Source: Microcoleus sp. FACHB-831
GTDB taxonomy: Bacteria > Cyanobacteriota > Cyanobacteriia > Cyanobacteriales > FACHB-T130
DNA length: 64,000 bases
Direction: 5' to 3'
Assembly (NCBI RefSeq): GCF_014695585.1
Contig: NZ_JACJON010000025.1
Coordinates: 1 to 64,000, forward strand
Numbering within the stretch: position 1 is the stretch's first letter; each line of letters starts with the position of its first letter. The translations under genes and the position numbers were made by a program. This document shows positions 24,940 through 28,861 of this stretch, piece by piece. The notes under the pieces were generated by a model. It saw only the letters and a program-made list of their open reading frames with translations. It did not search any database and was not told the origin of the DNA.

Positions 24940-26424
24940 ATGACCACTGCTGCTCCGGTAAAAACTAAGTACGAAGCCATCATCGGTTTGGAAACTCATT
25001 GCCAACTGAATACCGCTACCAAGATTTTTTGTAGTTGTTCGACGGAATTTGGTGCGACTCCAAACCAAAATGTCTGCCCAATATGTATGGGGATGCCTGG
25101 GGTATTACCAGTACTGAATGAAAGGGTGCTGGAGTACGCTGTTAAAGCAGGACTGGCACTTAATTGTCAAATTGCTCCCTATAGCAAATTCGACCGCAAG
25201 CAATACTTTTATCCCGACCTACCTAAAAATTATCAGATTTCCCAGTACGATTTGCCTATTGCGGAACACGGTTGGCTAGAAATTGAGCTAACTGATGAGG
25301 CTGGCAATCCTATCCGCAAAAAGGTTGGTATCACCCGCCTGCATATGGAGGAAGATGCTGGGAAACTGGTTCACGCAGGTAGCGATCGCCTCTCTGGTTC
25401 TACTCACTCGCTCGTAGACTACAATCGCACTGGCGTACCTTTGGTAGAAATTGTATCGGAACCGGATATCCGTTCTGGTCAAGAAGCGGCTGAATATGCC
25501 CAAGAATTGCGCCGAATTCTGATTTATCTGGGCGTCAGCGACGGGAATATGCAAGAAGGTTCGCTGCGCTGCGACGTGAATATATCAGTGCGTCCAGTTG
25601 GACAAGAGAAGTTTGGCACGAAGGTAGAAATCAAAAATATGAACTCCTTCAACGCCATCCAACGCGCCATTGAGTATGAAATTGAGCGTCAAACCGCAGC
25701 TATAGAAGCAGGCGATCGCATTGTACAAGAAACTCGGCTGTGGGAAGAAGGCAGCCAGCGCACTATCAGCATGCGCGTCAAAGAAGGTTCTAGCGATTAT
25801 CGCTATTTTCCAGAACCAGACTTGGCTCCTATTCAAGTACCATCAGGGCAATTGGAGCATTGGAAGTCAGAATTACCCGAACTCGCAGCCCACAAGCGCC
25901 GTCGTTACGAAAGCGATTTAGGTCTTTCTGCCTATGATGCCCGCGTGCTAACCGACGATCGCGGGGTAACGGAGTATTTTGAAGCTGCTGTTGCCTTCGG
26001 AGCCAATCCCAAGCAAGCCGCTAACTGGGTGATGGGGGATATCAGTGCTTATCTCAATCAAGAGAAACTGAACATCAGCGCACTAGCACTCAAACCCGCT
26101 ACTCTAGCTGAACTAATCTCTTTAATTGAAGACAACACCATCAGCGGCAAAATCGCTAAGGAGATTTTGCCAGAGTTGCTCTCTAAGGGGGGTTCGGCTA
26201 AGGCATTGGTTGAGTCTAAGGGACTTGTGCAAATCTCCGACGCTGGGGCGCTCGAAACCATTATTGATGAAATTTTGGTGTCAAATCCCAAAGAATTGGA
26301 ACAGTACCGCAGCGGCAAAACTAAGCTGCTGGGCTTTTTTGTGGGACAGGTGATGAAGAAAACTGAGGGACGGGCTAACCCGAAGCTGATCAACGAAATT
26401 CTGGCTAAGAAGCTCAATGCTTGA
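24940..26424 (+). CDS. gatB: Asp/Glu-tRNA amidotransferase subunit B
   Basis: A 494-residue GatB that binds misacylated Glu-tRNA(Gln) or Asp-tRNA(Asn) and converts it to the amide with GatA and GatC. Visible are the N-terminal GLETHCQL motif, the zinc-binding CSCS...CPICMG cysteines (about residues 27-50), [16 protein letters not shown], and the helical tail and YqeY-like domain that contact tRNA (about 330-494). Full length for the family. gatA and gatC are not in the window. The three-copy small RNA array begins about 45 bases after its stop. Confidence 0.97.
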
Positions 26425-26469: not shown

Positions 26470-26565
26470 TTAGGGGGTATCACCCCCCACCCCCAATCGC
26501 TATAGTAGGGGTAGTAGATGCACCCTGATGATCGGGAGAGTCGCCAAGTGACTCTCCTTTTTTTG
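26470..26565 (+). ncRNA. Candidate small RNA, copy A
   Basis: The promoter reads -35 GTATCA (26477-26482), an 18-nt spacer, then -10 TATAGT (26501-26506). The predicted RNA begins near 26512, carries GTAGATGCACCCTGATGATC, and ends in a perfect 8-bp stem GGAGAGTC/GACTCTCC plus T7 (to 26564). The transcript would be about 53 nt. The -35 lies in a G5/C5 inverted repeat. It differs from copies B and C in the terminator stem, yet the stem still pairs. Confidence 0.6.
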
Positions 26566-26614
26566 TTTTCAATAACATTGTTGCAAATTATCCTCTTCTC
26601 CAAAAAAAGTTTAA

Positions 26615-26720
26615 AAAGGGGGTGACACCCCCCACCCCGAAATGATATATTGATGTTTAGTAGATGCACCCTGATGATCGGGAGAGAAGCCAACTGGCTC
26701 TCTTCTTTTTTTTTCGGGGT
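26615..26720 (+). ncRNA. Candidate small RNA, copy B
   Basis: -35 GTGACA (26622-26627), 18-nt spacer, -10 TATATT (26646-26651). The predicted RNA runs from about 26658 to the T9 run ending at 26714. The terminator stem is GAGA, a bulged A, then AGCC, loop AACT, then GGCTCTC. A 106-bp block including promoter and terminator is identical to copy C. Inverted ACCCCGAAA / TTTCGGGGT flank the transcribed part. Confidence 0.65.
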
Positions 26721-26800
26721 AAAGGACGAGTGGCTTTCGCGATCGCTGCGCTTCACAAGCATCCGAGCGGTATTGCAGACAACGACAAAAAAAAGATTTT

Positions 26801-26906
26801 AAAAGGGGGTGACACCCCCCACCCCGAAATGATATATTGATGTTTAGTAGATGCACCCTGATGATCGGGAGAGAAGCCAACTGGCTCTCTTCTTTTTTTT
26901 TCGGGG
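26801..26906 (+). ncRNA. Candidate small RNA, copy C
   Basis: It has the same promoter (-35 GTGACA 26809-26814, -10 TATATT 26833-26838) and the same terminator (T9 26893-26901) as copy B, 186 bp further on. The predicted transcript is about 26845-26901. The sequence between copies B and C is unrelated to that between A and B, so conservation is limited to the predicted gene. Confidence 0.65.
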
Positions 26907-26954
26907 TTAGATGACGGACTTGGATCTGCGAGTACATTTCCGGAGTCCAGAGAC

Positions 26955-26964: not shown

Positions 26965-27004
26965 CTGCTCACTCTAGGGAAGCGAAAAGCTTATAGGAGG
27001 AGTG

Positions 27005-28246
27005 ATGTCAGACTGGCAGGTAATTAGCGGTGGGGTTACTGCGCCGAGAGGATTTCGGGCAGCGGGAATTAGGGCAGGGCTGAAACCTTCAGGATTACCA
27101 GATTTAGCATTGATTGTGTCGGATGTAGAAGCGATCGCGGCTGGTGTGTTCACTACATCTGTTGTTCGCGCCGCACCTATAGACTATTGTCGCCAACGAC
27201 TGCAAGCCAAACATAGTGCGCGTGCTATTCTCTGCAATGCCGGACAAGCGAATGCGGCTACAGGCGAACAAGGGTGGTTGGATACTCTAGAAAGTGCAAT
27301 GATGCTGGGGCAAGCGCTGAATATTCCCTCAGAATCAGTATTGATAGCGTCTACTGGCGTAATCGGACAACGGATTAAGATGGACGCGCTAAAGGCGGGG
27401 ATTCCCAACTTAGTAGCGGCGGTGTCGGAAACTGGTGGGGATGCAGCAGCAAAAGCTATATGTACTACTGACTTAGTACCGAAATCAATAGCCCTAGAGA
27501 CAACAATAGGCGATCGCACCGTGCGAATAGGCGGTATGTGCAAAGGAAGCGGGATGATTCATCCCAACATGGCGACAATGCTAGCCTTTGTGACTTGCGA
27601 TGCAGCAGTTTCGCCATCGCTATGGCAGAAAATGTTGAGTAGAGCCGCAGATCAAAGTTTTAATCAAATTACAGTCGATGGCGATACAAGTACAAATGAT
27701 AGTTTGTTTGCCTTAGCGAACGGTCAATCGCGGACACCTGCGATTACAGAGATGGGGGCTGAAGCTGAGAAATTGGAAGCAATGCTGACAGAAGTTTGTC
27801 AGTATTTAGCGAAGGCGATCGCGCGTGACGGAGAAGGTGCAACTTGCTTAATTGAAGTGCAAGTTACAGGCGCAGTTGATGAAGAAGCTGCACGTAAAGT
27901 AGCCAAAACAATTGTAGGTTCATCTTTAGTTAAGTCAGCAATTTTTGGTCGCGATCCAAACTGGGGAAGAATTGCAGCGGCGGCGGGACGTGCTGGGGTT
28001 GCTTTCGATCAAGAAAATTTGCGAATTCAGCTAGGCGATTTCTTAATGATGGAACATGGGCAACCCCAGCAATTCGATCGCGCAGCGGCGAGTGCTTATT
28101 TGAAAGCTGCGGCGGCTGGTGCTTATTTGAAAGAAGATACTGTTTTAATTTCGGTGAGTATTGGCAACGGTGCGGGTTCTGGTACAGCTTGGGGTTGTGA
28201 CTTGAGTTACGACTACGTGAAGATTAACGCCGAGTATACGACATAA
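27005..28246 (+). CDS. argJ: Bifunctional ornithine acetyltransferase / N-acetylglutamate synthase
   Basis: A 413-residue ArgJ of the cyclic arginine pathway. It moves the acetyl group from N-acetylornithine to glutamate and, if bifunctional, also uses acetyl-CoA. The precursor cleaves itself at the conserved MATMLAF motif in the KGSGMIHPNMA segment (around residue 190), where Thr becomes the nucleophile. The C-terminal FGRDPNWGR motif is present. Start: AGGAGG lies at 26995-27000, 4 nt before ATG 27005. A GTG at 27002 is in frame but only 1 nt from the Shine-Dalgarno. Confidence 0.96.
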   Translation: MSDWQVISGGVTAPRGFRAAGIRAGLKPSGLPDLALIVSDVEAIAAGVFTTSVVRAAPIDYCRQRLQAKHSARAILCNAGQANAATGEQGWLDTLESAMMLGQALNIPSESVLIASTGVIGQRIKMDALKAGIPNLVAAVSETGGDAAAKAICTTDLVPKSIALETTIGDRTVRIGGMCKGSGMIHPNMATMLAFVTCDAAVSPSLWQKMLSRAADQSFNQITVDGDTSTNDSLFALANGQSRTPAITEMGAEAEKLEAMLTEVCQYLAKAIARDGEGATCLIEVQVTGAVDEEAARKVAKTIVGSSLVKSAIFGRDPNWGRIAAAAGRAGVAFDQENLRIQLGDFLMMEHGQPQQFDRAAASAYLKAAAAGAYLKEDTVLISVSIGNGAGSGTAWGCDLSYDYVKINAEYTT

Positions 28247-28263
28247 GGATGCGATCGTATTGC

Positions 28264-28380
28264 CCTGGCGATGTTCGTAATCGCGGCTAGACAAACGAAG
28301 TCCGCCTTCGCGGACTAAGAAATGTTCAATTTAACCCGCGAAGGCGGGTTTTGTCTGTGTAGCCGCGAATTCTATTCGCC
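28264..28380. repeat. Cloverleaf-like palindromic repeat, unit 1
   Basis: The outer arms are CCTGGCGA...TCGCGGCTA on the left and TAGCCGCGA...TTCGCC on the right. They enclose two perfect hairpins: GTCCGC-CTTC-GCGGAC (28300-28315) and AACCCGC-GAAG-GCGGGTT (28333-28350). Length 117 bp. It sits on the left side of the transposase gene. Confidence 0.85.
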
Positions 28381-28447
28381 AAAACAATTTAAAATATGCC
28401 TCAGCATCCATAAAGCAGACGATTTAAATTATGCGTTTCTAACACAA

Positions 28448-28861
28448 ATGAGGTCAAATTTCACGCAGTTATATCTCCATTGCGTTTGGGCAACATGGGA
28501 TAGATTGCCTTTAATTACACCAGATATTCAGAAGCAGCTTTATTCAGCGATTATTGGAGAGTGCAACCAGCTAGGATGTACAGTCATTGCCGTTGGTGGC
28601 GTTGAGGATCATATCCATCTCTTAACAGGTTTTTCGACTACTGTAACCGTATCTAACCTGATTAAGCAAATCAAGGGCAGTTCATCTCATCTAATTACCC
28701 ACGAAATAAAACCTGGTGAATTTTTTAAATGGCAAGGCAGCTACGGGGCTTTTACTGTTAGCCATGATGCTATAGATAAGGTGGCTGACTATATCAGAAA
28801 TCAGCGCATTCACCATCATCAAAAATCACTGATTTCTACTTGGGAAATAAATACGGACTAA
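28448..28861 (+). CDS. Y1 transposase (IS200/REP-associated type)
   Basis: A 137-residue HUH nuclease. It has a His-hydrophobic-His motif (DHIHLL, His55 and His57) and catalytic Tyr115 in a YIRNQR motif, matching the single-tyrosine transposases. These cut and join single-stranded DNA at hairpins. The gene is bracketed by palindromic repeat units 1 and 2, the arrangement expected for a REP-associated transposase that mobilises or maintains such repeats. No tnpB is present. I took ATG 28448; the frame is open from 28322, but that part is repeat sequence. Confidence 0.85.
   Translation: MRSNFTQLYLHCVWATWDRLPLITPDIQKQLYSAIIGECNQLGCTVIAVGGVEDHIHLLTGFSTTVTVSNLIKQIKGSSSHLITHEIKPGEFFKWQGSYGAFTVSHDAIDKVADYIRNQRIHHHQKSLISTWEINTD

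Follow-up and report, generated by a model that had tools for sequence, protein, structure and literature searches.

The closest described relative of the elements studied here is the small RNA NsiR1 (Rfam RF02399) of Nostoc PCC 7120, a transcript of about 55-60 nt with the 5' core UNGUAGAUGCACCCUGAU and an intrinsic terminator, which is encoded upstream of hetF in tandem copies that each have their own promoter. Nostoc NsiR1 acts on hetF as well as on alr3234, and HetR rises when the RNA is overexpressed (excerpts of PMC9045159). An NsiR1-like RNA is already in print for Limnospira, a genus forming no heterocysts (excerpts of PMC8400943). The regulator HetR needs GGGnnnnnCCC and its site at hetP reads GAGGGGTCTAACCCCTC; for new candidate HetR sites the same paper reports smears or nothing instead of clean shifts (PMC4192349). 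A passage of PMC11298460 describes as a mystery what role hetR and patX have in species that form no heterocysts. Among literature titles and abstracts we found none on RNAs that are NsiR1-like and have a HetR box and none on hetR as a direct target of NsiR1, nor a text joining 'NsiR1' and 'hetR mRNA'; the 2010 NsiR1 paper by Ionescu, the 2018 HetR-PatX paper and the 2020 NsiR1-hetF paper are known to us as cited. Here we analyse an array of three units from Microcoleus sp. FACHB-831, which quite probably are tandem genes for trans-acting, NsiR1-related small RNAs under direct control of HetR through palindromes at their -35 elements.

The array lies in a window of 64,000 nt (the whole stretch of DNA analysed), where its units span 26474-26901, with GatB encoded upstream and ArgJ downstream (Table 1). 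A preliminary description had placed three homologous units there, each with a -35-like element, a -10, a core, a hairpin and a T-run, and all of these were located. Its 18-nt spacer follows for units A, B and C from the positions of the -35-like and -10 elements, TATAGT or TATATT recurs as the -10, and the predicted RNA length of 53-57 nt agrees with the recomputed unit ends. The long identity of B and C is real and covers 107 bases (26614-26720 = 26801-26907), one more than the 106 given before; the DNA between units, described as unrelated, showed no likeness in the single comparison made, that of the A-B with the B-C spacer. The core GTAGATGCACCCTGATGATCGG is identical in all three units and, extended by one more base, is matched three times in the window and never in 100 shuffles. 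Predicted folds leave the 22-nt 5' part mostly open, followed by a terminator hairpin. As had been proposed, the different stem of copy A folds as well, at -17.9 kcal/mol (z -2.9); the hairpins of B and C reach -15.2 kcal/mol with z -1.3, so that their stability is not exceptional. Just 3' of argJ, the ORF 28322-28861 resembles an IS200/REP-type transposase.

Table 1. Features of the array and its neighbours (window coordinates).
Feature	Position	Strand	Remarks
gatB	24940..26424	+	upstream neighbour; adjoins related units in many relatives
Unit A palindrome GGGGTATCACCCC (HetR-box form)	26474..26486	+	encloses -35-like GTATCA 26477-26482
Unit A -10 TATAGT	26501..26506	+	
Unit A predicted sRNA	26512..26564	+	core 26514-26535; terminator stem 26534-26544/26548-26558; T-run 26558-26564
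Unit B palindrome GGGGTGACACCCC	26619..26631	+	encloses -35-like GTGACA 26622-26627
Unit B -10 TATATT	26646..26651	+	
Unit B predicted sRNA	26658..26714	+	core 26660-26681; hairpin 26680-26706; T-run 26706-26714
Unit C palindrome GGGGTGACACCCC	26806..26818	+	encloses -35-like GTGACA 26809-26814
Unit C -10 TATATT	26833..26838	+	
Unit C predicted sRNA	26845..26901	+	core 26847-26868; hairpin 26867-26893; T-run 26893-26901
argJ	27002..28246	+	downstream neighbour

At the Rfam gathering score the whole window gave no match. A lax cmscan of the region aligned all three copies end to end with NsiR1 RF02399 (model positions 1-60) at 35.9, 35.9 and 35.1 bits against a cut-off of 39, with agreement at 17 of the first 18 consensus letters. 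The core had been said to belong to no known cyanobacterial RNA and the NsiR1 arrays to be merely analogous; neither statement is supported by these alignments. Matches to L20-leader, mir-2008 and GHRLOS in the region scored far under their respective cut-offs and were discarded. With NsiR1 at E <= 0.001, matches occurred in 38 of 60 relatives (above the cut-off in 36) and 15 times in the host genome, and among 14 control genomes in E. coli alone, under the cut-off. At the cut-off, Rfam NsiR1 called none of 20 loci with units of this type and thus misses them. Since the matches run end to end below the cut-off and the 20 loci go uncalled, the RNA is, as judged from its sequence, a relative of NsiR1 and a distinct variant, not NsiR1 as defined by Rfam and a DIF1 promoter. 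Core, size, terminator and tandem layout with a promoter for each copy, predicted here by sequence, are as in Nostoc PCC 7120. Unlike NsiR1 of that strain, however, the variant lacks the DIF1 motif TCCGGA and has a HetR-type palindrome in its stead, carries the extension GAUGAUCGGGAGAG, scores under the Rfam cut-off, is placed between gatB and argJ, and occurs also in genomes without nifH. At least five NsiR1 copies of canonical type, with an exact TCCGGA, are likewise present in the host, on contigs C9 (L028 6342-6930) and C36 (L017); four of them stand in tandem between ORFs that by eye resemble a precorrin methyltransferase and lgt.

An exact 20-mer of the variant was found in 53 stretches from named genomes, every one with a cyanobacterial title, including Moorena, Symploca, Coleofasciculus, Argonema, Limnofasciculus, Nostoc and Gloeocapsopsis. 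In an alignment of 94 related sequences 16 columns are invariant, 15 of them inside the core, and both sides have changed in five of eight stem pairs, a level of covariation reached by none of 500 shuffles. Covariation among homologues, which the preliminary description had proposed to look for, is therefore present, and its reading of small RNA genes under selection is supported; what it overlooked is the kinship of the core with NsiR1 and the HetR-type palindrome around the -35. A unit adjoins gatB or argJ in 26 of the 53 named stretches (both genes in 11, only gatB in 11, only argJ in four). Since these also include Nostoc and the HetR-less Gloeocapsopsis, the interval between gatB and argJ is probably where the gene originally resided. 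Allocoleopsis franciscana PCC 7113 has related stretches on two of its plasmids; on one of these, pMIC7113.05 (L387 1500-1620), box, core and terminator are the same, at a place where the PLSDB table lists no feature.

Near the -35, canonical NsiR1 copies, including the five in the host, have TCCGGA and units of the window type GGGGTNNNACCCC. A GGGN5CCC site is present at the promoter of each unit of the array, and TCCGGA is absent from all three promoters. The array palindromes share the GGGGTNNNACCCC half sites and their spacing with the HetR-recognition site of hetP, but are seated on the -35 of a small RNA promoter, one for each of three tandem units. The 6.42 Mb host genome holds 15 such palindromes, against two for the reversed pattern, and six of them fall on its six class II (window-type) units, three in the array and three on contig C68. 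Among 203 unit candidates, limited to those for which 55 upstream bases were available and a T-run was present, 120 had GGGN5CCC near the -35, 50 had TCCGGA (at most one mismatch), 33 had neither (two of which are not real units) and none had both. The centre of the box is GAC in 53 cases and its mirror image GTC in nine for the common form, and one to one in shifted copies, suggesting that a TGACA -35 is retained within the box. Because the box covers the -35 and GAC is preferred as if that element were retained, we lean slightly towards repression over activation as the putative effect of HetR.

The host encodes one HetR, whose N-terminal part is almost identical to that of the crystallised protein. 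No nifH above the cut-off was found in its genome, which is 99.4% complete (220.7 against 394 bits); in the same search 26 of 72 genomes passed. In a 340-genome sample of the host's order the core occurs within one mismatch in 101 genomes, some of them counted through DIF1-type copies (e.g. L131, L155-L158, L161-L163, L171), and HetR in 197. HetR is encoded by 85 of these 101, and 12 of the remaining 16 belong to family f17. Among named genomes with the 20-mer, 30 of 34 have HetR; the four others are Gloeocapsopsis (L050) and Gloeocapsa (L078), without the box, and L035 and L074, with it. Across 291 genomes of the host's class, a covariance model of the variant (E <= 1e-6) matched 147, where stricter Infernal filters mean that some misses may be false and some matches in family f33 may be canonical copies; a HetR_C search found 149. 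RNA and HetR occur together in 142 genomes, RNA only in five, HetR only in seven and neither in 137 (Fisher p 7e-67, ancestry not corrected for). A multi-copy RNA with a HetR-type box in 142 of 149 HetR genomes would serve as a read-out, and as a candidate output of HetR, in species without heterocysts.

The box itself was recounted against HetR, leaving out L135, L139 and L140 through the T-run filter. For HetR-positive genomes of the host's order outside f33 there were 59 units with the box, 20 with DIF1 and two with neither (59 of 61 non-DIF1 units), and for other orders 80, one and one (80 of 81). Although f33 has HetR, the box is mostly decayed there, with ten units retaining it and 17 showing neither motif (8 of 28 with the box in a hand count over a slightly different set). 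Genomes in which no HetR was found contributed 20 units, four with the box, one with DIF1 and 15 with neither. The latter are all 12 units of f17 and all three of f8, HetR-less families that have yet kept the core, and since 15 of 15 have neither motif the box is lost in these two families while the RNA remains. The four box units come from G291 (two), G232 and G461, assemblies 89, 82 and 62% complete, an incompleteness that is no proof of a HetR gene in them.

That the palindrome serves another regulator or is simply a G/C-rich -35 element, with the co-occurrence with HetR a product of ancestry shared by filamentous lineages, is a reading we regard as rather unlikely. It agrees with the overlap of box and -35, with the preference for GAC in the centre, with f33, where the RNA persists beside a mostly decayed box, and with the four box units from genomes where HetR was not found. 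However, those four exceptions come from incomplete assemblies, the palindrome agrees with the sequence requirement published for HetR as well as with the 13-mer of hetP (excerpts of PMC4192349), the 15 core-keeping units of HetR-less f17 and f8 have no box, and the shifted copies on C68 keep it away from the usual -35 position. For direct control by HetR the counter-evidence is f33 (box in 10 of 27 units although HetR is present), and the box kept in L035 and in the four units, from three genomes, just mentioned. The seven HetR genomes without a match to the covariance model, the five matched genomes without HetR and the smears published for new candidate sites also count against it.

Ordinary NsiR1, that is, relocated canonical copies of heterocyst type under control of HetZ and DIF1, would have the same 5' core, array layout and size, but would be expected to carry TCCGGA, which none of the three promoters has, while TCCGGA-type copies exist separately on C9 and C36; with scores under the Rfam cut-off, no Rfam call at the 20 related loci and a host lacking nifH above cut-off, we consider this improbable. 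Still less credible is a mobile element or small-ORF cassette in place of an RNA gene. The 107-bp identity of B and C, the stretches on two Allocoleopsis plasmids and an ATG within the core would suit it, yet there was no phage match and no exact core among viral contigs, and the adjacency to gatB or argJ in about half of the named stretches speaks against a mobile repeat, which was rejected. The small-peptide reading of ATGCACCCTGAT was likewise rejected, as its ATG has no shared stop, and in the core third codon positions vary hardly more than the others. HetR-controlled, NsiR1-related small RNA genes thus remain the preferred reading of the array.

In the control of rpoS by DsrA and RprA, a small RNA frees a start region held by a segment of the leader. 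The hetR leader of the host has stretches complementary to the RNA core; this candidate target was noticed by eye, and sets of 40, 20 and 20 other leaders served to test it afterwards. Over 41 leaders the core duplex averages -19.7 kcal/mol and random windows -14.7, and none of 300 shuffled seeds reached the former mean; over 20 further leaders the values are -16.1 against -12.5 (none of 200 shuffles as low). In 20 leaders from other orders the signal is weak (-15.7 against -13.8; two of 300 shuffles as low) and its places are scattered, so that such a target would be limited to some lineages. The motif AT[TC][AG]GGGTGC, which can pair with GCACCCUGAU when G-U is allowed, occurs in 19 of the 41 leaders, 16 times between -109 and -142 and mostly shortly 3' of a TATAAT. 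By family it is found in 6 of 6 leaders of f1 (host included), 1 of 1 of f4, 8 of 11 of f14 and 4 of 5 of f28; other forms of the site occur in f33 (6 of 8), f2 and f9, and no clear shared site was seen in f5, f20, f22, most of f32 and the other two f33 leaders. A GU-tolerant 20-mer antisense scan across the host genome yielded 10 non-self matches where the reversed pattern yielded 11, which leaves no other target standing out.

Folds were computed for 25 of the 41 leaders, those whose site could be recognised within 180 nt. In f1 and most f14 leaders this site is predicted to pair with the start region of hetR, and blocking it opens the start region beyond the mean of other windows in 19 of the 25 leaders, all families taken together (mean gain 0.08 against 0.00; effect not seen in f33). 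As the site would pair with the start region and its blocking would open the latter, we propose that the small RNA frees hetR translation in the host's lineage, in the manner of DsrA and RprA on rpoS, though with unrelated target, small RNA and host and as a predicted mode. The leader site might be kept for its pairing with the start region alone. Neither TCCGGA nor GGGN5CCC nor GTAN8TAC occurs in the stretch searched upstream of host hetR (L085), whose leader has a 10-bp inverted repeat 3' of the complementary site.

From the units, their homology and their palindromes, we infer that each unit is transcribed alone from a sigma70-type promoter, its -35 lying inside a HetR-binding palindrome through which HetR would act directly on all three, and that each transcript is ended by the intrinsic terminator. 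The single-stranded 5' core GUAGAUGCACCCUGAU would be the pairing part of the RNA. In the host's lineage the RNA has a likely target in the hetR leader, some 125 nt ahead of the start codon. There, pairing in vivo would release the start region from the leader site and so raise HetR; the complementarity suggests a loop from HetR through the small RNA to hetR. More tentatively, and short of calling it probable, the HetR-box small RNA could be ancestral in filamentous cyanobacteria, a near-constant companion of HetR there and older than heterocysts, with the feedback loop on the hetR leader belonging to the host's lineage and the NsiR1 of heterocysts being a later derivative in which the box gave way to DIF1. 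The variant would then suggest where heterocyst-specific NsiR1 came from.

Some further observations concern individual families and units. Five f33 genomes (G039, G145, G253, G339, G363) have nifH in two separate parts, as if split by an insertion element; heterocysts are likely in this family. In HetR-less genomes of the f17 type (L110-L121, L050, L078) the palindrome and any clear -35 are lost, and the RNA is kept, mostly behind an extended -10 resembling TGnTATACT. The three units on C68 (L004-L006) form a sub-variant with a CGCCC/GGGCG terminator and a palindrome shifted 4-6 nt toward the -10; the sub-variant also occurs in Argonema, Trichocoleus and relatives.
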